A DNA stretch of 64,000 bases, from NCBI GenBank assembly GCA_021202925.1, contig JAJQCD010000014.1, positions 150,159 to 214,158 on the forward strand, in the 5' to 3' direction. Under the pieces are notes generated by a model, which did no database searches, had not been told where the DNA came from, and saw nothing but the letters and a program-made list of their open reading frames with translations. The stretch is from Clostridiales bacterium. GTDB taxonomy: Bacteria; Bacillota; Clostridia; Lachnospirales; Lachnospiraceae. Both the position numbers and the translations under genes were made by a program. Of the stretch, positions 9,887 through 21,312 are shown one piece after another (position 1 is the stretch's first letter; every line of letters begins with the position of its first letter).

Positions 9887-11098
9887 TTAATAAGCCAGCC
9901 GGTTCAGGCACGTTTCTAGCACTCTCACGCCTTTTTCCATATCCTCTATCGACGCATATTCTTCCGGGCAGTGGCTCCGTCCACCCAGGCAGGGAATAAA
10001 AAGCATTCCCACCGGTCCCAGCTTCGCCATGTTGAGTGTGTCATGTCCGGCACCGCTTGGCATCAGGCGGCAGGGATAGCCCAGTTCCTCACAGGCCTCC
10101 ATAAGCATGGTCTTTAACTCCGGCGTCATCTCCGTAGCAAGATTGTTTGGATACGGAATCCAGGTGATTTCACGCCCGCCCGGAGCCGCCTCCTCTTCAC
10201 AGACTCTCTTTACCGCAGCCGCCATCTCCTGTTTGATTTCCTCTACCGGATGACGCAGGTCAACGGTAAAGCACACCTCGCCCGGAATCACATTTTCCGC
10301 GTCCGGCTTTGTCCAGATACGGCCTACCGTAATCACCCCGTCTCCCGAATTCTTCGCGATCTCGGGAAAACGGGCAATCGCACGCGCCGCATATACCATG
10401 GGATCTCTTCGGTCTGCCATCGGAACGGTTCCTGCGTGGCCCGCTTCGCCAGACATCGTCACACGAAACTGCTGCGTTCCAACAATCGAATCGACAACTC
10501 CAACAGGAATTCCGGCCTTTTCCAGCACCGGTCCCTGTTCAATATGCATTTCCAGATAAGCGCCTACTTTGTCGCGCACGGCCTCATCCACCTGTTCTGC
10601 GTCCAGGCCGACTTCAGCCATCGCTTCTGCAATTGTCACACCATTTACGTCCGTCTTTTCGCGGAACGTTGCCTTGTCGAGAGAGCCGGCAACCGCATGG
10701 CTGCCCATCAGGCCAATGGAGAATCGAGATCCCTCCTCCCCGGTAAAGGCTACCACTTCCATGGTGGTTTTCGGCTGTCCCTGCTTTTTCAGGATCTCCT
10801 TTACTGCCATGAGGCTTCCCAGTACGCCAAAAATACCGTCGTAATTTCCTCCGTTCCGCACCGAATCAATATGGGAGCCAGTGACAATCGGCAATGCCTC
10901 CGGATTCCTTCCATCCACCTTTCCCCATAGATTACCGGCCGCGTCTCTTCGCACCGTAAGCCCTGCCTCTTCCATCCATCCGGCCACCAGACGATACATT
11001 TCCGTCTCCTCCGGTGTATAGGAGCCTCTGTAGTAGCCGCCCTCCGCCGCCACTCCGATTTCAGACAACGCATCAAACCATTCTTTCAATTCTTTCAC
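9887..11098 (-). CDS. M20 family Zn-dependent hydrolase (allantoate amidohydrolase / N-carbamoyl-amino-acid hydrolase type)
   Basis: TGSHIDSVRNGGNYDGIFGVLG, FTGEEGSRF, MHIEQGPVLE, SGAGHDTLNMA all present; GTG start behind GGAGG avoids the long overlap implied by the track start. Confidence 0.88.
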   Translation of the reverse strand: MKELKEWFDALSEIGVAAEGGYYRGSYTPEETEMYRLVAGWMEEAGLTVRRDAAGNLWGKVDGRNPEALPIVTGSHIDSVRNGGNYDGIFGVLGSLMAVKEILKKQGQPKTTMEVVAFTGEEGSRFSIGLMGSHAVAGSLDKATFREKTDVNGVTIAEAMAEVGLDAEQVDEAVRDKVGAYLEMHIEQGPVLEKAGIPVGVVDSIVGTQQFRVTMSGEAGHAGTVPMADRRDPMVYAARAIARFPEIAKNSGDGVITVGRIWTKPDAENVIPGEVCFTVDLRHPVEEIKQEMAAAVKRVCEEEAAPGGREITWIPYPNNLATEMTPELKTMLMEACEELGYPCRLMPSGAGHDTLNMAKLGPVGMLFIPCLGGRSHCPEEYASIEDMEKGVRVLETCLNRLAY

Positions 11099-11130
11099 AA
11101 CAAACCTCCGTGCTATTCCATCAAACTCGA

Positions 11131-12450
11131 TCAACCGATGACTCGTCCATCCTTCATAACGACCTGTCCGCCACAGACTGTGACGCAAACTTTTCCTTTG
11201 AGTTCTCTACCCTCAAAAGGTCCCGGCGCTCCTCTCGTATACAGTTGCTGGTGATTCACGGTCCACCGCTCGTTCTCGTCAATTAAAATAAGATCGGCGT
11301 CATACCCCGGGGAAATCCTCCCCTTCTGCGATGACAAACCATATATGTTTGCCGGATTCTCGCAGCAAAGCCTTCGGATATCCTCCAGATTCAGGAGTCC
11401 GCGGCTCCTTGCATCCAGAAGCAATGCCAGCTCCGTCTCCAGCCCTGTCATCCCACTGGCACAGGAGGCAAGCCTCTCCCGGTCTTTCTCTTTCACCATA
11501 TGAGGCGCATGATCCGAGGCGATATAGTCTACCGTTCCGTCCCTCACCCCGTTCCACAGCTCATCCACATCCTGCTGTGTCCGCAGCGGCGGATGAATAT
11601 GCGCGCCGGATCCATAAATCCGCAGCGCATCTCTGGTCAGGAACAGATAATGAACGCAAATCTCCACATACACCAGGGCGTCCGGGTACAGATTTCTCAT
11701 GGCGCGCACCGTCTCAAGCGCCTTTTTCGTGCTCACCATCCGAAGCACCACCGGCACATGAAAATAAGCTGCCATTGGGAAGATCCGCGCAATCGATAAG
11801 GCTTCCGTCTCTCCATCTGTCGCATCCGCGATCACGTCCGTCTCATCCTTCCCCAGATCCAACGACTGTTTTTTCCTCAGTGACTCAAGCTGCGGATCCA
11901 TCAGATAAAAGCAAAGCGGGACGCACATTTCTTTTGCCTCCCGGAACAGACGAAGCCAGTCCCCCGTTCCATAGGAAAACATATCATCATAAACATCCAT
12001 GGCAACCGCGCCGGCCTGTACAGATGGAACAATCCATCCAGGAGCCGCGGCGCATGTTCCTCCCGTCAGAGCCACATGAACCAGCGCCTTTTCATCCGCA
12101 CTCTGCCTGACGAGCTGAATCGCCGCCCGGTTTGTCATAGGCGGATTGCAGTTTGGCATAGCCATAATGGTCGTCACACCGCCGTTGGCTGCCGCCATCG
12201 TCGCACTCCGCCAATCCTCCTTCCCGGTATATCCCGGATCTCTTGTATGAACATGGGCGTCAATCATTCCCGGCAAGAGGAACCGGCCTCCGGCCTCTAT
12301 TCGTTCTCTGCTCTCGCATTCGCAACTCTCTCCGGTATGAGACGGATCCCGCGCCGGCCTGAGCCAGACAATTTTCTCCCCTTCTATTCCCACATCCCAG
12401 CGGGCTTCGGTTTCATCCAACCGCGCTCCCGCTATGACCAGATCACACAT
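11131..12450 (-). CDS. Dihydroorotase/allantoinase/hydantoinase-like amidohydrolase with altered metal site
   Basis: PGMIDAHVHTRDPGYTGKEDW, MPNCNPP, EICVHYL, HPPLR, IASDHAPH retained; expected carboxy-Lys and two His replaced (see finding). Confidence 0.85.
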   Translation of the reverse strand: MCDLVIAGARLDETEARWDVGIEGEKIVWLRPARDPSHTGESCECESRERIEAGGRFLLPGMIDAHVHTRDPGYTGKEDWRSATMAAANGGVTTIMAMPNCNPPMTNRAAIQLVRQSADEKALVHVALTGGTCAAAPGWIVPSVQAGAVAMDVYDDMFSYGTGDWLRLFREAKEMCVPLCFYLMDPQLESLRKKQSLDLGKDETDVIADATDGETEALSIARIFPMAAYFHVPVVLRMVSTKKALETVRAMRNLYPDALVYVEICVHYLFLTRDALRIYGSGAHIHPPLRTQQDVDELWNGVRDGTVDYIASDHAPHMVKEKDRERLASCASGMTGLETELALLLDARSRGLLNLEDIRRLCCENPANIYGLSSQKGRISPGYDADLILIDENERWTVNHQQLYTRGAPGPFEGRELKGKVCVTVCGGQVVMKDGRVIG

Positions 12451-12471: not shown

Positions 12472-13587
12472 TCAGGCCGTTCCAGGGAATGGGATCCCCG
12501 TTTCCTCTCCGACGGCCACAAGATTCTTTGCAAGAGAAACATGTAGCGGAATTCCCTCTGCCCGGCGCTTCTCTGACGTCAGAAAGCTTCTCTCCCCCGG
12601 AACGTAAATCTCACCTGCTCCCTTTGCCTTTGGGCAGTCCTTCAGGTGCTGTACATACTGATCGACCCTTGTCTTAAATTCATCCAGTGGCATGAATGAA
12701 TCAATCCGAATCGCTCCAAGGAAATGAGATACTCCTGTATTTTCATCATGATTACCATAAAATCCCAGTTCATCTGCTACCCTGCCGCCACTCAGGACTC
12801 CTGTAAGAATCTCCGCCATGCAGCTTAGAGCATAGCCCTTATGGCCTCCAAAGGGCAGCATCAGTCCGTTCATTCCTTCCGTGACGTCCGTTGTCGGTTC
12901 ACCATCGGCCGTAACCGCCCAGTTGGACGGTATCGTCATTTCTCCCCTCATTGCCATCATAGCCATGCGGGTCCATCCCACTACAGTACATGCCATATCA
13001 AATACCACCGGGAAACGTATGCCTGGCACAGCAAAAGACCATGGGCTCGTTCCTAAAAGACGCTGCGTTCCTCCCGGAGGTGCCATTTGCGGAGTGCCGT
13101 TTGTAATACAGATACCGATGCAGCCATTTTCCGTGGCATAGCGCGAGTATATCCGATTTGCTGTCAGCGTATTGGAATTGCCCACGCTGACAAAGCCCAC
13201 TCCGTTTTCGTTGGCCTTCCTGACAGCCATTTCCATGGCTCTCCACCCCATAACCTGGCCATATCCTCCTTCACCATCGCACCTGGCCGTAGTTGGCGTC
13301 TCATACAATACACGCAACTTTGCTTTCGGATTATCTCCTCCCGCCTTCGCTCGGCTGATGTACATGGGAAACTTCAATACGCCATGAGTATCTACTCCCA
13401 TCAAATCCGTTTCCACCAGGACATTGGCCATCACGTCGGCATCCTCTTTCGACATTCCGATGTGGACCAGGACCTTTGAACACCAGCTCTTCAGTTCGTC
13501 TGCCTGCACACTATTCGGTAACTTTTCCTCCTCTTCATTATCAGAACCAGAAAAACTATAAGGTGCCAAATTTCGTTTCTCAAGCAT
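12472..13587 (-). CDS. Ldh family (malate/L-lactate/diketogulonate/ureidoglycolate dehydrogenase type) oxidoreductase
   Basis: DTHGVLKFPMYI, ITNGTPQMAPPGG, LGTSPWSFAVP, PFGGHKGYALSCMAEIL. Confidence 0.88.
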   Translation of the reverse strand: MLEKRNLAPYSFSGSDNEEEEKLPNSVQADELKSWCSKVLVHIGMSKEDADVMANVLVETDLMGVDTHGVLKFPMYISRAKAGGDNPKAKLRVLYETPTTARCDGEGGYGQVMGWRAMEMAVRKANENGVGFVSVGNSNTLTANRIYSRYATENGCIGICITNGTPQMAPPGGTQRLLGTSPWSFAVPGIRFPVVFDMACTVVGWTRMAMMAMRGEMTIPSNWAVTADGEPTTDVTEGMNGLMLPFGGHKGYALSCMAEILTGVLSGGRVADELGFYGNHDENTGVSHFLGAIRIDSFMPLDEFKTRVDQYVQHLKDCPKAKGAGEIYVPGERSFLTSEKRRAEGIPLHVSLAKNLVAVGEETGIPFPGTA

Positions 13588-13607
13588 AACTTCTTCCCTC
13601 CTGAATA

Positions 13608-14885
13608 TTATATCCCGATCAGTAAATTAGGCAGCCAGACAACCGCATCAGGAAAGAGCGCCATCGTAATCAAAGCAGCAAATAAAGCCAGAAAATACGG
13701 CGCAGCCTCTCGCATGAAATCCGCCAGACTGACCTTAGTAATACTTGTTGTAATATACATAACCATTCCAACCGGCGGTGTGATCTGTCCGATCATCAAC
13801 GCTACCACCATAACGACACCAAAATAGATTGGATTAATGCCATAACTGTTGATCAAAGGCAAGACAATCGGCACAGTCAGCAATGTAATCGCCACACCAT
13901 CCATAAAAAGACCAATCAAAAGATAAAAGAGTATCAGCACTGCCATAACCATCGCCGCACTGTCTGTTGTCATGAGGAAAACCGACAGGATCTTCTGCGG
14001 AATACTGTCGAGCGCGGCTACCCAGCCCATAACGTTCGACGCAGCAACGATGATCATCGTCGTGGCCGTCAGGCTTGTCGTTCTCAGAATAATACCCGGA
14101 ATATCCTTTATGGTTATCTCCTTATAAACAAAGCCCAGAATACCCGCATAGACAGCCGCCGCCACCGATGCCTCTGTCGGCGTGTACCAGCCAAACAGGA
14201 TGCCTCCCATGATAATGATCGGTGTCAGAAGTGGCAGGAATCCCTCCTTTAACGCATGGAGAAAGTTGGACCAGGAGAATTTTGTCACAACGCCATAGCC
14301 TCGTTTTTTTGATATAAACCAGGTAACGATCATCTCATAAAAACAGATAACGACCCCGGGCAAAAGTCCCGCCACGAACATCTTTCCCACGGAAACGCTG
14401 GCTACACTCGCATAGATCAGCATGTTTATGCTGGGAGGAATCACCGGACCTATAACCGCGGAGCAGGCGGTGACAGCCGCCGCAAAAGGTTTCGGATACC
14501 CTTTCTCCACCATCTCCGGAATCAGAATCACGCTGGTAGTCGCCGCATCAGCCGAAGCTGAACCGGACATTCCCGCCATGACGGTACTGCTGAGGATATT
14601 CACATGAGCCAGGCCACCTCGAAACTGGCCGACAACCGCCTGAGCCAGATTCATAATACGCCTGGTTGTCCCTCCTGAATTCATCAGCTCTCCTGTCAAC
14701 AGGTAAAACGGAACCGCCATCAGCGTAAACGAATTGACCCCCCGGAACAACTGATTCGCAATACCCACCATTGAGATGGAATCCTGCGTCAGGATAAAAA
14801 TCACACAGCCGATTCCCATCGCCACAAACACAGGTGCACCGGTGAATATAAGAAGAATCATAATCCCAAACATGATGATTGCCAT
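13608..14885 (-). CDS. dctM: TRAP transporter large permease (DctM)
   Basis: 425 aa, GMSGSASADAATTSVILIPEM, VIPPSINMLIYA, PITPPVGMVMYITTSI. Confidence 0.93.
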   Translation of the reverse strand: MAIIMFGIMILLIFTGAPVFVAMGIGCVIFILTQDSISMVGIANQLFRGVNSFTLMAVPFYLLTGELMNSGGTTRRIMNLAQAVVGQFRGGLAHVNILSSTVMAGMSGSASADAATTSVILIPEMVEKGYPKPFAAAVTACSAVIGPVIPPSINMLIYASVASVSVGKMFVAGLLPGVVICFYEMIVTWFISKKRGYGVVTKFSWSNFLHALKEGFLPLLTPIIIMGGILFGWYTPTEASVAAAVYAGILGFVYKEITIKDIPGIILRTTSLTATTMIIVAASNVMGWVAALDSIPQKILSVFLMTTDSAAMVMAVLILFYLLIGLFMDGVAITLLTVPIVLPLINSYGINPIYFGVVMVVALMIGQITPPVGMVMYITTSITKVSLADFMREAAPYFLALFAALITMALFPDAVVWLPNLLIGI

Positions 14886-14888
14886 GTT

Positions 14889-15416
14889 CTACTCCCTCCT
14901 CTCCTGCCCGGCGTCTGTTTCACTGTTATTTCCTTTTCTCTGAACTCTCCGGATCACATCGAGACAGACCGCCACCAACATGATCAGGCCGCCCACCATG
15001 ATTGCAGAGTTCCACCAGGCCATCGGCATATTAAAATATTTTCTCAGCGTAGCAACCGCCTGCGTCCCTGTACTCTTCACAAGAATATAGCCGCCGCCTG
15101 TCATAACCAAACAGAACACGATTGTCATAAGATCATTAAACACCTCTACCACGTGACGGATTCCAGGAGGCATCTTGTCCAGCACGAAAGTCACTCGGAT
15201 ATGCTTTCCCTCCATCATGGCCAATCCGCTGCCGAGAAATACCAGATAGACAAGAAGGTAACGCCCCACTTCGTCAGTCCACATGACATCAAAATTTATA
15301 AATGGTACATTTCTCGAGAGAATCATCAGAAGCAGCGAAACCGTCAGCGCAAGGAAGCACACCACGCACAATGCCTGAATGATCGTAAACATGATTTTTC
15401 TCAACTTCACCGGCAT
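14889..15416 (-). CDS. dctQ: TRAP transporter small permease (DctQ)
   Basis: Four-TM protein with WTDEVGRYLLVYLVFLGSGLAM. Confidence 0.9.
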   Translation of the reverse strand: MPVKLRKIMFTIIQALCVVCFLALTVSLLLMILSRNVPFINFDVMWTDEVGRYLLVYLVFLGSGLAMMEGKHIRVTFVLDKMPPGIRHVVEVFNDLMTIVFCLVMTGGGYILVKSTGTQAVATLRKYFNMPMAWWNSAIMVGGLIMLVAVCLDVIRRVQRKGNNSETDAGQERRE

Positions 15417-15490: not shown

Positions 15491-16576
15491 TTACATTCCC
15501 TTAATCTGCTCGATCCACTCTGCCGGAACCGTTCCAAGAGACTCCGGTACTCCTTCGCATGCCTCGCGGAAAGATTCGATATCCTCCGGTTCATTTACTT
15601 CAACGCCCGCCTGCCGGATATTCTCAACCAGTTCATCCTCCACGCCACTCAGATAATCTCTCTGATACTGCTCTGCTTCTTCGACCGCATTCCTGATCAT
15701 CTCCTGATCCGCTCCAGACAGGCCGTTCAGCCATTCGTTGTTGGCCAGAATGAAATTGGTACCCAGCATATGATGCGTCAGCGTCACATATTTCTGAACC
15801 TCCTGAAAACTCTGCGCCCAGAATGTAGAGGCCGGATTGTCCTGACCGTCGGCCACTCCTTGCTGAAGAGCCATATACAGCTCATTCAGGCTGACGGTAA
15901 CCGTCGTCGCACCCATGGCGTTAAACGTAGCTGAATATACTTCCATATCCGGAACACGAATTTTCATTCCCTTCAGATCATCAACCGACTGAATCGGTTT
16001 TACATTGTTGGAAATATTTCTCCAGCCAATCGATACATATCCCAATAGAGCCAGACCATTATCCTCAAAGCGGCTGCCGAGTTCATCAAACAGGAAACCA
16101 TCAAAGCAGGAATACGCATGGTCGTAATCACGATAGAGGAATGGCATGTCCGTAACCGCTGTTTCCGGAACCCATGAAGTAGTCGAGCTTCCGACAAACA
16201 TGTCCTGCTGCCCCATTAACATCCCCTCTATCATTTCACGGTCATTGCCCAGTATCGCGTTCGGATAAATCTCAACCGTAATATGTCCATTGCTCTCTTC
16301 CTCCACCAGTTCCTTGAACTTCCCTGCAAACACCTGATACTGGTGTTCCTCTGTCCCGGAATGACCAAAGCGGATCACAACCGGGGCCGAGTCAGCCTCC
16401 CCTTCGGTTTCTGCTTCCGCTACCGCTTCTGCTTCGGTCTCCGCGCTGGTCGTTGCGGCAGCTGTCGTTGTCCCGGATGCCGTCTGACTCCCCCCGGAAC
16501 CCGAACAACCCGCCATCATTCCGGCCACCATCGTCACCGCAGACACAACCGCTAATAATTTCCCCCATTTTTTCAT
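15491..16576 (-). CDS. dctP: TRAP transporter substrate-binding lipoprotein (DctP)
   Basis: Lipobox MVAGMMAGCSG; KIRVPDMEVYSATFNAMGATTVTVSLNELYMALQQGVADGQDNP. Confidence 0.93.
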   Translation of the reverse strand: MKKWGKLLAVVSAVTMVAGMMAGCSGSGGSQTASGTTTAAATTSAETEAEAVAEAETEGEADSAPVVIRFGHSGTEEHQYQVFAGKFKELVEEESNGHITVEIYPNAILGNDREMIEGMLMGQQDMFVGSSTTSWVPETAVTDMPFLYRDYDHAYSCFDGFLFDELGSRFEDNGLALLGYVSIGWRNISNNVKPIQSVDDLKGMKIRVPDMEVYSATFNAMGATTVTVSLNELYMALQQGVADGQDNPASTFWAQSFQEVQKYVTLTHHMLGTNFILANNEWLNGLSGADQEMIRNAVEEAEQYQRDYLSGVEDELVENIRQAGVEVNEPEDIESFREACEGVPESLGTVPAEWIEQIKGM

Positions 16577-16607: not shown

Positions 16608-17414
16608 TTATGATCGCAACTCTTTCACCTTATCCATGAACGCCCGAACCCTGCTCTCGTCCACTTCGTTTTCAAAAATACCATCCACTTTAAACGTAGT
16701 CGCGCACACAGCCCCGTCAGCAACCGAAAGCTGTCGCTGGATATTGTTCACGTTGCAGCCCGTATTGCATAATACCGGCGTATGGCGCACCACATCCTTT
16801 ACCTGTTTCAGTACCTGAGTATCGGTCTCGCTTCCCGCGGTCAGCCCCGATACACACAACGCATCTGGCGCGTGATTGAATTCTGTCGAACGTGCAATTT
16901 CCTTAATGTCCCGATCCGCCAGATATTTCGCCGCCTCCGGCACGATATTAAACAGCATCCTGACATTTTTCGCTCCGATACGCGCCCTGTGGCGAGCCGT
17001 CCGGCCGGCGTCTGTGTTCCACAGTCCAAAATCACTGGCATACACGCCGGAAATGATCTCCCGGATAAACTGCCCTTCCACCGCTTTCGCCAGATCCAGC
17101 GACGCGATGGGATCCCAGAGGCAATTGACGCCGTATGGAATTTTAATTTTATCCTTCAGCTCTCCTATGACATACGCCATGGCCGCAATCGTGATCGGCT
17201 CTACCTTGGTCAGATATGGAAGGCTGAATTCATTTGAAAACATGATGCCATCTACTCCGCCCTCCTGCAAAGCAGTGAGATCGTGAAGCGCGCAGGTAAT
17301 CACCTTCTCCATTCCGCCCTTCTCGTCATAACCCGGATCTCCCGGCAGTGCCTGCAAATGGCACATCGCGATAATCGGTTTTTCCACATGAAATAATTCT
17401 TGCATCCAGCTCAT
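16608..17414 (-). CDS. BtpA/SgcQ family protein
   Basis: KPIIAMCHLQALPGDPGYD, VNCLWDPIASLDLAKAV, TGCNVNNIQRQLSVADGAVCATTFKVDG. Confidence 0.88.
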   Translation of the reverse strand: MSWMQELFHVEKPIIAMCHLQALPGDPGYDEKGGMEKVITCALHDLTALQEGGVDGIMFSNEFSLPYLTKVEPITIAAMAYVIGELKDKIKIPYGVNCLWDPIASLDLAKAVEGQFIREIISGVYASDFGLWNTDAGRTARHRARIGAKNVRMLFNIVPEAAKYLADRDIKEIARSTEFNHAPDALCVSGLTAGSETDTQVLKQVKDVVRHTPVLCNTGCNVNNIQRQLSVADGAVCATTFKVDGIFENEVDESRVRAFMDKVKELRS

Positions 17415-17491: not shown

Positions 17492-17520
17492 ATCATACAA
17501 CTTTATTGATTCAATGTCAA
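17492..17520 (-). promoter_or_regulatory. Promoter for the leftward arm (BtpA-TRAP-Ldh-amidohydrolases)
   Basis: TTGACA - 17 bp - TATGAT on minus strand. Confidence 0.7.
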
Positions 17521-17655: not shown

Positions 17656-18300
17656 ATGCTGAAAATTTTGCCATCCATCGCGTCTGCCGACCCACTGGCC
17701 CTTCGCGATGAAATCGCACAGATTCAGAGCATCGGCAGGCTGCATCTGGATATCGAAGACGGAAACTTTATCGACAATATTACATTTGGTCTCAGAACCA
17801 TCACAGCGATTGCCCGTGAATTTCATGGTTCGCTAGACGCGCACCTGATGACCACAAAACCAGAATGCTGGCTTCAGCCATTGGCCGAATGCGGTGTCTC
17901 TGCCATATGCGGCCACATAGAAGCACTTCCCTATCCGAGACAGTTTCTGAGACATGCCAGATCGCTCGGAATGAAAGCCGGGCTGGCCTTTAACCTGAAG
18001 ACCGGCCCGACGAATTTGCTTCCTTATAAGAATGACCTGGACTATGTTCTAGTCATGACATCCGAGCCGGATTATGGAGAACAGACCTTTTTCGAATGTT
18101 CTTTCAAACGAATCGAGCAGTTCAGGAATCTTCTGGCTCCGGAAACAGAGCTCTGGTGCGACGGCGGCATCTGTCCCGGACACCTCCCTCAGCTCCGTGC
18201 CTCGGGTGCTTCCGTCGCCGTCATGGGGCGTGCCATCTTTTCTGATGACAATCCCAAAAACAGACTCGATCTGCTGGAAAGAGAGGCAAACAACTTATGA
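17656..18300 (+). CDS. Ribulose-phosphate 3-epimerase-like protein (SgcE/AlsE-like)
   Basis: LPSIASADPLAL, HLDIEDGNFIDNITFG, DAHLMTTKPE, WCDGGI; canonical His/Asp ligands present. Confidence 0.85.
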   Translation: MLKILPSIASADPLALRDEIAQIQSIGRLHLDIEDGNFIDNITFGLRTITAIAREFHGSLDAHLMTTKPECWLQPLAECGVSAICGHIEALPYPRQFLRHARSLGMKAGLAFNLKTGPTNLLPYKNDLDYVLVMTSEPDYGEQTFFECSFKRIEQFRNLLAPETELWCDGGICPGHLPQLRASGASVAVMGRAIFSDDNPKNRLDLLEREANNL

Positions 18301-19154
18301 TCGACCAGTCATACCCTTTTGTTCTTTATGAAAAAGCGCTTATGCCTCATTCGTGGCAGGAAATGTTCGCAGATACTGCCGAACTCGGTTTTGACGGTTT
18401 TGAACTCAGCATCGACGAAAGCGACGCCCGCCTGGCCCGGTTGGACTGGACACGCGAAGAATGTCTGTCTGTGATGCGGGCAGCTGCGGACACAGGAGTT
18501 CTGCTGCAGTCCCTCTGTTTCAGCGGGCAGCGCCGTTTTCCCATGGGCAGCGAGGACCCAGATCTTGTCCGGCACTCGCTTCTTCTGATGGAAAAATGCA
18601 TCAGACTCTGTCAGTATCTGGGGATCCGCACGCTTCAGGTGGCAGGTTTTGACGTCTATTATGAACCTTCTTCGCCAAATACCTACGCCAGATATATCGA
18701 CAATCTGGCCCGGATGACCAGAATTGCCGAACGGCACGGCGTTATGCTGGCGATTGAACCCGTAGAAAAAGGAGTTCTTTCTGTTGAGATGGCTCTTGCC
18801 ATCGTCAATCAGATTCGCTCTCCCTTTCTTCAGATTTATCCGGATATCGCCAACATGGCTTCTCTCGGAATCGATTATTTCCCTCAGATGGAGAAAGGGA
18901 TCGGGCACATTGTTCAGATTCATATCCGGGATGCCTTGCCGGACTTCTACTATGGAGTAGATATCGGTACCGGAATTATTGATTTTGTAAAAACATTTCG
19001 TCATTTCCGGCAATTGAATTTATCCTGTCCCCTGACACTGGAAATGTGGGGACTGGAAAATCCGCACTATATGGAAACACTTCGTTACACCGTATCGTTT
19101 CTTCAGAACGCTTTAAAAAATGCTAGCCAACCGGCAGAAAGGATGATACAATAA
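18297..19154 (+). CDS. L-ribulose-5-phosphate (L-xylulose-5-P) 3-epimerase UlaE/SgbU-like
   Basis: YEKAL...LGFDGFELSIDESDARLARLDWTREE, RRFPMGSED, YPDIANM, VQIHIRDALPDFYYGVDIGTGIIDF, LEMWG. Confidence 0.9.
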   Translation: MIDQSYPFVLYEKALMPHSWQEMFADTAELGFDGFELSIDESDARLARLDWTREECLSVMRAAADTGVLLQSLCFSGQRRFPMGSEDPDLVRHSLLLMEKCIRLCQYLGIRTLQVAGFDVYYEPSSPNTYARYIDNLARMTRIAERHGVMLAIEPVEKGVLSVEMALAIVNQIRSPFLQIYPDIANMASLGIDYFPQMEKGIGHIVQIHIRDALPDFYYGVDIGTGIIDFVKTFRHFRQLNLSCPLTLEMWGLENPHYMETLRYTVSFLQNALKNASQPAERMIQ

Positions 19155-19816
19155 TGTATGAAAATGAAAAAAAATCTGTACTTGACGCAGCCTTAGAGAT
19201 CAAACGCAATCATCTTGTTGCATTATGCGGAGGGAATATCAGCCTTCGTCTGCCCGACAATACCTTCCTCGTAACCCCATCCGGTATGATCTATGAGGAT
19301 ATGATCCCAGACGACGTCGTTCGCATCGATGAAACCGGCACAGTGATCGAAGGAATCCGACGACCCAGCAGCGATGCTCCCGCTCTTCTCTACATTTTTA
19401 AAAAAATGCCCTGGGTGAACGCTGTCATTCACACGCATCAGCCCTGGGCCACAGCCGTAGGGCTTGTTGCCGATGTGCTGCCCGCCTGCTTAGTTACGCA
19501 GATTGACGCCAATCGAAGCGATGTCTACGTTGCCCCCTTTACTCCGTCCGGTGAAAAACAGATGGGAGTTCTCACCGTAGAGTATGCGCATGATGCCTGG
19601 GCTGTCATACTCAAGCATCACGGCGTTATGGCTTACGGGCCGACTCTGAAGGATGCTATTTTTTCTGCCGTTTATCTCGAAGAATCCGCCCAAACCTATA
19701 TGATCGCCCGGTCTGTCGGATCGGTTCCCACGCTGGATCCTGCTCTGGTCCAGGTGGAAGCGGACAGTTGGCATTCTTATGGGCAACCATCTGCCCGGAA
19801 CAAGGAGAACTCATGA
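19154..19816 (+). CDS. Class II aldolase / L-ribulose-5-P 4-epimerase (AraD/UlaF/FucA family)
   Basis: GGNISLRLPD, VIHTHQPWATAV, ILKHHGVMAYGPTLKDA. Confidence 0.88.
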   Translation: MYENEKKSVLDAALEIKRNHLVALCGGNISLRLPDNTFLVTPSGMIYEDMIPDDVVRIDETGTVIEGIRRPSSDAPALLYIFKKMPWVNAVIHTHQPWATAVGLVADVLPACLVTQIDANRSDVYVAPFTPSGEKQMGVLTVEYAHDAWAVILKHHGVMAYGPTLKDAIFSAVYLEESAQTYMIARSVGSVPTLDPALVQVEADSWHSYGQPSARNKENS

Positions 19817-21312
19817 AACAAACGCCGGTTCTTATGGGAATAGATATTGGCGGTTCGAATATCAAATGCGCCGTCTTCGACCTCAAAGGCCGGGAACTGG
19901 CCACAGCCAAAACGGCTCCTCCCGTTCATCAGCCCCAGGCAGGATGGGTCGAGCGGGAAGCGGAGGCCGTATGGGCGGCCGTCTGTCAGGTTATCCGGAC
20001 GGCCATCCAGATGTCCTCCATCTTCCCTCATCAGGTTGCCTCCGTTTCCCTCTGTGGTTATGGCGGTGGGCTTTGCCTTGTTGACGAACAAGGAGATGCG
20101 GTCTACCCTTTGATTGTCTCGACCGACACACGCGCTTCCTGTCAGCTGAAAACCCTCTATGACTGTGGTGCGGCAGAAAAGATTTTCCACATTACCCATC
20201 AGCAGCCTTGGGAAGGACAGGCCGCCAGTCTGTTGCACTGGTTTCGGGAATACCGTCCTGACGTTCTCAGCAGAGCCCGATACCTGCTGACCGTAAAGGA
20301 TTATATCTGCAGTCAGCTGACCTCGCAGATATCCTGCGAAATCACAGACGCATCCAACCACAACCTCATCGACCCGAAGAGCAGTTCCTACAGTGAAAAT
20401 CTATTCCGGCTATCTGACCTTGAAGATGAACGCAGACTGTTTGACGCTCCCCTGTTATCTCCCATCTCCGTGGCAGGTCGTATCACTGCTTCCGCTGCCG
20501 CGGCAACCGGTCTCGCGCAAGGCATCCCTGTCGCCGCCGGATTATATGATGTCTCTGCCTGTACACTCGGCTGCGGTGCGCTGGAACCCGGAACATTCGC
20601 TATGACAAACGGGACCTGGTCAATGGCCTCCTGCTTTTCATCATCCTACCAACAGGCGGATGAATCTACCATTGTCACGGTCACTGCCCTGGAAGACCGG
20701 TTTCTGCTCGAACAGGGGAGTCCCACGGGAACCGTCAACCTTGAATGGTATCTGGATCGTTTTCTTTCCAGAAACCATCCTGAACTGTCACGAAAACAAC
20801 TTTATGATCTCTGCGGAACGGTTGTTGAAAAGCCCAATCCGCAGAACCATGTTCTGTTCATCCCCCATCTCTATCTTGGAGGGGAAAAGCCGAATACCGG
20901 AGGCGCTTTTCTCAACCTTCAGGGACACCATGAGGAAGAGGATCTTCTGTACGCTGTGATGGAGGGAATCCTCCTCTCGACCATACACCATATATCGCTT
21001 CTGGAAAAAGGAACCACTCCCTTTTCTTCCGCTGTGCTTTCCGGAGGGCTCTCCTCCTCCCGACCCTGGAGTCAGATGCTGTGTGATATGTTACAGCGAC
21101 CCATCACGATACCGGAAGGGTCGCAACAGGGAGCCCGTGGTGCGGCCATGTGCGCCGGAATCGCGATCGGCGCATTCAGCAATTTTCATCAGGCAGCCGA
21201 AGCCATGGTTCATCCAGCCCGCACCATGGAACCGAGAAGCGAATATCACGAATTATATCATACCAGAACGGAAACCTATGAAAAAGCTCTCCGCGTGATA
21301 CATTCTCTGTGA
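19813..21312 (+). CDS. FGGY carbohydrate kinase (LyxK/xylulokinase-like)
   Basis: MGIDIGGSNIKCAVFDLKGREL, PQAGWVEREAEAVW, SGGLSSSRPWSQMLCDML; ATG at 19813 behind AAGGAGA, overlaps preceding stop by 4 nt. Confidence 0.88.
   Translation: MKQTPVLMGIDIGGSNIKCAVFDLKGRELATAKTAPPVHQPQAGWVEREAEAVWAAVCQVIRTAIQMSSIFPHQVASVSLCGYGGGLCLVDEQGDAVYPLIVSTDTRASCQLKTLYDCGAAEKIFHITHQQPWEGQAASLLHWFREYRPDVLSRARYLLTVKDYICSQLTSQISCEITDASNHNLIDPKSSSYSENLFRLSDLEDERRLFDAPLLSPISVAGRITASAAAATGLAQGIPVAAGLYDVSACTLGCGALEPGTFAMTNGTWSMASCFSSSYQQADESTIVTVTALEDRFLLEQGSPTGTVNLEWYLDRFLSRNHPELSRKQLYDLCGTVVEKPNPQNHVLFIPHLYLGGEKPNTGGAFLNLQGHHEEEDLLYAVMEGILLSTIHHISLLEKGTTPFSSAVLSGGLSSSRPWSQMLCDMLQRPITIPEGSQQGARGAAMCAGIAIGAFSNFHQAAEAMVHPARTMEPRSEYHELYHTRTETYEKALRVIHSL

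Follow-up and report, generated by a model that had tools for sequence, protein, structure and literature searches.

The gene described here lies in a 64,000-nt stretch of DNA from a Clostridiales bacterium (the window), within a tight run of minus-strand genes. In order, the run comprises a BtpA/SgcQ-like gene, TRAP transporter genes, a malate/lactate-dehydrogenase-family gene, the atypical gene itself and an M20 amidase gene:

17492..17520, minus strand: putative promoter-like site upstream of the first gene, TTGACA-17-TATGAT (consensus match 11/12)
16608..17414, minus strand: BtpA/SgcQ family protein, first gene of the run (TIGR00259, 313.4 bits against a cut-off of 153)
15491..16576, minus strand: TRAP solute-binding protein, DctP (TIGR00787, 226.9 bits against a cut-off of 175)
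14889..15416, minus strand: probable TRAP small permease, DctQ (from its position between DctM and DctP and its sequence read by eye)
13608..14885, minus strand: TRAP transporter large permease, DctM (TIGR00786, 386.7 bits against a cut-off of 268)
12472..13587, minus strand: malate/lactate/sulfolactate dehydrogenase-family protein, 21 nt upstream of the atypical gene (sulfolac_dhydr, 256.5 bits, below the cut-off of 500)
11131..12450, minus strand: atypical dihydroorotase/hydantoinase-like protein, 439 aa (ORF; NCBIfam and Pfam; AlphaFold2 and Foldseek)
9887..11101, minus strand: M20 hydantoinase/carbamoylase-type amidase, GTG start assumed, 29 nt downstream of the atypical gene (NCBIfam)

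The M20 gene scores above the NCBIfam cut-offs for PRK09290.1-5 (426.8 bits; cut-off 399) and TIGR01879 (402.4; cut-off 204). Its motifs (GSHID, GGNYDG, EEGSRF, HIEQGP and SHCPEEY) read as intact in the translation, as the original prediction had said. An allantoin operon (AllB/AllC/AllD) was considered, with three similar families adjacent to one another, and was set aside: all three cut-offs were missed. Two further features of the region deserve mention. The operon is headed by a BtpA/SgcQ family gene. On the plus strand at 17656-21312, divergent from the genes at 12472-14885, are genes for a ribulose-phosphate-epimerase-like protein, an L-ribulose-5-phosphate 3-epimerase, a 4-epimerase/aldolase and an FGGY kinase. 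Together with the genes at 12472-14885, these presumably resemble the E. coli yia/sgb sugar-acid set, and hence the imported substrate could be sugar-acid-like.

What kind of protein does the atypical gene encode? The reading frame has an ATG start and zero internal stops. Its top NCBIfam model is TIGR00857, at 271.6 bits, below the cut-off of 279.05. It scores far under the cut-offs of the PyrC equivalogs and the hydantoinase profile, and it misses the AllB profile TIGR03178 (236.2 bits; cut-off 357.85). The Pfam profile PF01979 is passed comfortably (88.4 bits; cut-off 25). The profile match, the (beta/alpha)8 fold, the HxH motif and the beta8 Asp place the protein in the cyclic amidohydrolase fold family (dihydroorotase/hydantoinase/allantoinase), in agreement with the original prediction; the family comes from NCBIfam and Pfam, and the fold from AlphaFold2 and Foldseek. 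It was not filed as a dihydroorotase because it lacks the beta-site histidines and falls short of the TIGR00857 cut-off. Among solved structures, Bacillus allantoinase (3hm7) is the nearest in sequence, followed by Aquifex dihydroorotase (3d6n). No relative above 36% identity was found in the genome's contigs, in the genus, family, class and phylum samples or in viral contigs. Despite a median identity of 31% to ordinary homologues, the protein keeps 35 of the 40 near-invariant columns, defined as those at least 95% conserved among 44 ordinary homologues. Complete ligand sets are found in two other genes of the same genome, an ordinary PyrC-type gene (L002, contig C26) and a second hydantoinase-like gene (L003). 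A biosynthetic PyrC role for the window protein was rejected on account of the former.

In cyclic amidohydrolases, a bridging carboxylate is common to both metals; the HxH motif and the beta8 Asp complete the alpha site, and two histidines complete the beta site. The residues of the window protein that correspond to these ligands, or that contact the substrate in dihydroorotases, are as follows:

12247..12255, minus strand: H66-V67-H68, retained alpha-metal HxH, beta1 (alignment, model)
12241..12243, minus strand: R70, retained substrate-carboxylate Arg, equivalent to Arg60 of M. jannaschii dihydroorotase (alignment; PMC12809426)
12151..12153, minus strand: N100, retained substrate Asn, equivalent to Asn89 of the M. 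jannaschii enzyme (alignment; PMC12809426)
11995..11997, minus strand: D152, carboxylate at the carboxy-Lys position, beta4, probable alpha-metal ligand, with D155/D156 as alternatives (alignment, model)
11905..11907, minus strand: Y182, replaces the first beta-metal His, beta5 (alignment against 46 ordinary homologues)
11740..11742, minus strand: R237, invariant Arg of the atypical group, adjoins a lost His (alignment)
11737..11739, minus strand: M238, replaces the second beta-metal His, beta6 (alignment against 46 ordinary homologues)
11512..11514, minus strand: D313, retained beta8 Asp, metal ligand and general base (alignment, model)
11500..11502, minus strand: H317, retained substrate His, equivalent to His306 of the M. 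jannaschii enzyme (alignment; PMC12809426)

Reading the translation confirmed every residue that had been called at the metal site (H66-V67-H68, D152, Y182, M238 and D313), and the AllB ligands with which they had been compared (H59/H61/Kcx146/H186/H242/D315) were quoted correctly (PMC9863593). His occupies both position 182 and position 238 in 46 of 46 ordinary homologues, so the loss is not sampling noise. Judged by alignment, both lost histidines belong to the beta-metal site, and each alpha ligand has a counterpart. The substrate-binding residues that are invariant in dihydroorotases—His, Arg, Asn, Asp and His—are all present, as H68, R70, N100, D313 and H317 (PMC12809426).

The original prediction had also counted a missing carboxy-Lys among the defects. 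An Asp, D152, does stand at that position, but treating it as a defect was wrong: type-I bacterial dihydroorotases have an invariant Asp instead of the carboxy-Lys (PMC12809426). Since those enzymes ordinarily have an Asp close to the Lys position, only the two beta-site His losses are truly unusual. In the segment MDVYDDM, D152 falls at the Lys position without a gap, as do the Asp or Glu residues of the related proteins, and D155/D156 can be aligned with the DD of the type-I TDDG motif by a 2-residue insertion. The type-I ligand Asp itself lies two residues past the Lys position, a shift that is remarked on in PMC3880350 and that counts against ligation by D152. D152 is still the probable metal ligand, with D155 or D156 less likely.

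The predicted structure is consistent with these assignments. An AlphaFold2 model built from a 13-sequence alignment reached a pLDDT of 86.5 and a pTM of 0.89; an earlier run with 3 sequences gave a pLDDT of 31.9 and was discarded. In the strand assignment of the model, H66 closes strand 62-67 with H68 directly after it, D152 closes strand 148-153, Y182 closes strand 179-182, M238 directly follows strand 234-237, and D313 comes shortly after strand 309-311. The site residues are thus predicted to occupy the canonical beta1, beta4, beta5, beta6 and beta8 positions, as judged by strand assignment rather than interatomic distance. Structure prediction had been proposed as a check for substitute ligands: neither the alignment nor the strand assignment places another Lys or His at a metal position, although a His reaching in from a different part of the fold would fall outside these two comparisons. 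Allantoinases, an L-hydantoinase and dihydroorotases match the model in Foldseek at TM 0.81-0.91; the top matches include the Aquifex enzyme, with 3d6n and 4bjh, the latter being its H180A/H232A double mutant.

The residue next to the second lost histidine is also distinctive. Position 237 is Arg in all atypical members and mostly Gln, Leu, Val or Cys in ordinary homologues; the two type-I enzymes that were read have Gln (Aquifex) and Cys (B. anthracis). For four type-I enzymes, PMC3880350 describes zinc ligation shells that differ at one residue: A. aeolicus and T. thermophilus have Gln there, S. aureus and B. anthracis Cys. We infer that this residue is the equivalent of position 237. If so, the group has put a positive charge beside the emptied beta site. 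One hypothesis, by analogy with the compensating His of NagA, is that Arg237 stands in for the charge of the beta metal.

Is the window protein alone in these changes? A group of proteins shares the pattern, with Asp or Glu at 152, Tyr, Ser or Thr at 182, Arg at 237 and Gln at 238 (Met in the window protein). The same coordinated change occurs in a genome of another Bacillota lineage (L024/L057) and in the Alphaproteobacteria sample (L054/L058 and L055/L059). Rhizobium, Neorhizobium and Paracoccus, along with one more proteobacterial genome, contribute a compact group of their own (L026, L027, L029, L033, L060-L063 and L067). The five near-invariant columns lost by the window protein are identical to those lost by L055. 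Carriers are nevertheless rare, and the group is small and scattered: after residue reading, there were carriers in 2 of 289 genomes of the Alphaproteobacteria sample and 1 of 399 of the Pseudomonadota sample, counts that are lower bounds because the score thresholds were strict. Within the Clostridia sample, the window's own genome was the sole carrier left after filtering at similarly strict thresholds. Many high-scoring candidates (L025, L028, L030-L032, L034-L038, L040-L053, L064-L066 and L068-L070) proved ordinary by residue reading. Some proteins deviate in other ways. L049 (G752:C215:1135-2463) is hydantoinase-like with HVQ replacing HVH, so that here the alpha site, not the beta site, is the candidate for loss. 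L036 and L037, on haloarchaeal plasmids, have a full set of metal ligands but carry Met in place of Arg70 and Ser in place of His317, and their substrate is therefore probably different. A limited literature search turned up no published description of the atypical group, which is weak evidence of absence.

The evolutionary unity of the group depends on which columns are considered. In a tree built on all columns, the 12 atypical sequences then known form one clade with support of 94/92. When the columns flanking the metal ligands are removed, the window protein, whose branch is long (~1.7), shifts to the PyrC branch; on the same reduced alignment, holding all atypical sequences together is not rejected (AU p 0.396), a result that fits a single origin as well as convergence. 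The rhizobial branch is under purifying selection, with pairwise dN/dS of 0.12-0.31 and synonymous sites near saturation in many pairs. For the rhizobial branch, this answers the proposed dN/dS check of the subfamily.

The gene neighborhoods of the other members vary. The L059 cluster has ornithine-cyclodeaminase-like, M20, atypical and arylmalonate-decarboxylase/EutA-like genes. The L057 cluster has an M20-type peptidase gene, PyrK- and PyrD-like genes, TRAP genes, the atypical gene and an arylmalonate-decarboxylase/EutA-like gene. The L058 cluster has genes for xanthine-dehydrogenase-like subunits, an ornithine-cyclodeaminase-like gene and the atypical gene, and the rhizobial cluster has genes for HydA, PuuE, a ThDP enzyme, the atypical protein and SDRs. 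The M20, PyrK, PyrD, ornithine-cyclodeaminase and arylmalonate-decarboxylase assignments come from a family search, and the L057 TRAP and L058 xanthine-dehydrogenase names from sequence reading. These clusters look like N-heterocycle catabolic clusters. The L057 region (G773:C47:1-13107) also has a PucR-like regulator gene and is a candidate reductive pyrimidine-like catabolic cluster; the HydA/PuuE-like/ThDP/atypical dihydroorotase/SDR arrangement is conserved between Rhizobium and Paracoccus (L060:1129-9952 of Rhizobium johnstonii pRL12, L026 and L027). An intact M20 carbamoylase-type gene beside the atypical gene is found in L055 as well as in the window, that is, in two lineages. A common M20 neighbor was not counted as a specific sign of kinship, since 40% identity is background within the M20 family.

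How might such a protein work? It is probably a mononuclear, alpha-site cyclic amidohydrolase that acts ahead of the neighboring M20 amidase on a carboxylated cyclic ureide or amide, whose ring it would open; this reading draws on sequence, model, gene order and analogy. One divalent metal would be held by H66, H68, D313 and a beta4 carboxylate (D152 or, less likely, D155/D156). This metal would activate water for attack on the ring amide, with D313 as the general base, and R70, N100 and H317 would hold the carboxylate of the substrate. The second metal would be absent, and Arg237, beside the emptied site, may give the lost positive charge. The likely substrate, a carboxylated cyclic ureide or amide, would be imported by the TRAP transporter, and the ring-opened product, an N-carbamoyl (or similar) amino acid, would pass to the M20 amidase as the next enzyme.

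The original prediction left a choice between a pseudoenzyme and an enzyme with mononuclear or changed chemistry. The mononuclear or changed centre is favored because the alpha ligands and the five substrate residues are kept, most near-invariant columns survive, distant bacteria carry the same replacement, and an Aquifex mutant without the same histidines is active; no support was found for a structural-partner role. A dead protein with a structural or regulatory role alongside the M20 amidase or another operon protein, like the Pseudomonas pseudo-dihydroorotase with aspartate transcarbamoylase (ATCase), is accordingly an unlikely explanation, albeit one with arguments behind it: two of the usual metal ligands are missing, equivalent losses abolish activity in two-metal relatives, namely a dihydroorotase and an allantoinase (PMC3880350), and inactive dihydroorotase homologues that are required by a partner enzyme do exist (PMC7053772). 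However, domains of the pseudo-dihydroorotase type, as described for a fungal example, are without zinc ligands and substrate residues (PMC7053772), whereas the window protein keeps its alpha site and a five-residue substrate set whose survival would not be expected in a functionless copy. There is also no ATCase gene near the window gene—the ATCase/OTCase-domain (OTCace_N) genes are on contigs C10 and C18—and a role as an ATCase partner found no support.

Could the one-metal site catalyze a different reaction, such as lactone opening, isomerisation or decarboxylation? A reshaped site is indicated by the coordinated replacement, the new invariant Arg237 and changes at positions 251 and 257, and the racemase/decarboxylase-like and ornithine-cyclodeaminase-like genes of the other clusters suggest no single fixed pathway. 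This explanation is nonetheless improbable, since the dihydroorotase substrate residues are kept and a carbamoylase-type amidase adjoins the gene in two lineages, as ring opening predicts. It is more improbable still, to the point of being hard to credit, that the gene is a decaying recent acquisition that resembles the other atypical proteins by coincidence. The absence of close relatives in the sampled genus, family, class and phylum would fit such an origin, as would the disappearance of the grouping once the metal columns are removed. Against it, the reading frame is intact with close neighbors on both sides, the near-invariant columns are largely kept, Arg237 is present, and the lost columns match those of L055.

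What would a one-metal amidohydrolase of this kind imply? Whether cyclic amidohydrolases need one metal or two is a disputed point, and the one-metal case has so far consisted of the Aquifex enzyme, whose His-free version was made in the laboratory, and the S. aureus dihydroorotase. If the favored reading is true, natural loss of the second site together with an adjacent Arg amounts to evolution repeating the Aquifex experiment, and the role of the second metal becomes testable. The group would also point to N-heterocycle catabolic routes that lack an assignment. A broader proposal, which the sequences make possible but which we regard as doubtful, is that the group represents a new type of amidohydrolase metal site—HxH, beta4 Asp/Glu and beta8 Asp, no beta5 or beta6 His, and a conserved Arg that takes over from the second metal—in a catabolic group, stable though scattered, whose substrate would be an N-heterocycle. 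The annotated records examined name such proteins simply "dihydroorotase family protein"; hence, a motif check for Arg followed by Gln or Met at the expected His would flag members.

How does the window protein compare with known systems? Like allantoinase AllB and L-hydantoinase (3hm7, 8hfd and 1gkr), it would be a ring opener followed by an M20 amidase, and its fold matches theirs at TM 0.86-0.91. Those enzymes have the carboxy-Lys and both beta-site histidines, however, and the window protein falls below the AllB cut-off. The pseudo-dihydroorotase of Pseudomonas ATCase is likewise a dihydroorotase homologue that deviates from the metal-ligand set, but it is inactive and required by ATCase (PMC7053772), whereas the window protein retains alpha-site and substrate residues and is not encoded near ATCase. 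The one-metal NagA deacetylases belong to the same superfamily and have lost one of two metal sites, and a nearby basic residue has been proposed to polarise the carbonyl in place of the metal (reviewed in PMC3880350). E. coli NagA has lost the HxH and kept the beta site, with a His as the proposed compensator; the window protein is the reverse, with an Arg as the candidate.

The closest parallel is the Aquifex type-I dihydroorotase, which has one zinc per subunit (PMC3880350). Its His180 and His232 are at the positions of Y182 and M238, and the H180A/H232A mutant has an unchanged Km, a Vmax that is 21% lower and, in its crystal structure, zinc in the alpha site only (PMC3880350). Like the Aquifex alpha site, that of the window protein would be formed from the HxH, an Asp of the beta4 region and the beta8 Asp; the second-site histidines are dispensable in the 3d6n/4bjh pair and naturally absent from the window protein. 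The two also differ. The native Aquifex enzyme is biosynthetic, keeps both histidines and is active only with its ATCase partner, whereas the window protein combines a natural His loss with Arg237 and a place among TRAP and M20 genes in an operon of catabolic type. The precedent holds only if the window protein is of the one-metal kind, because the same removal kills two-metal enzymes. With the alpha ligands present, the best reading by analogy is that the window protein works like the Aquifex one-metal dihydroorotase.
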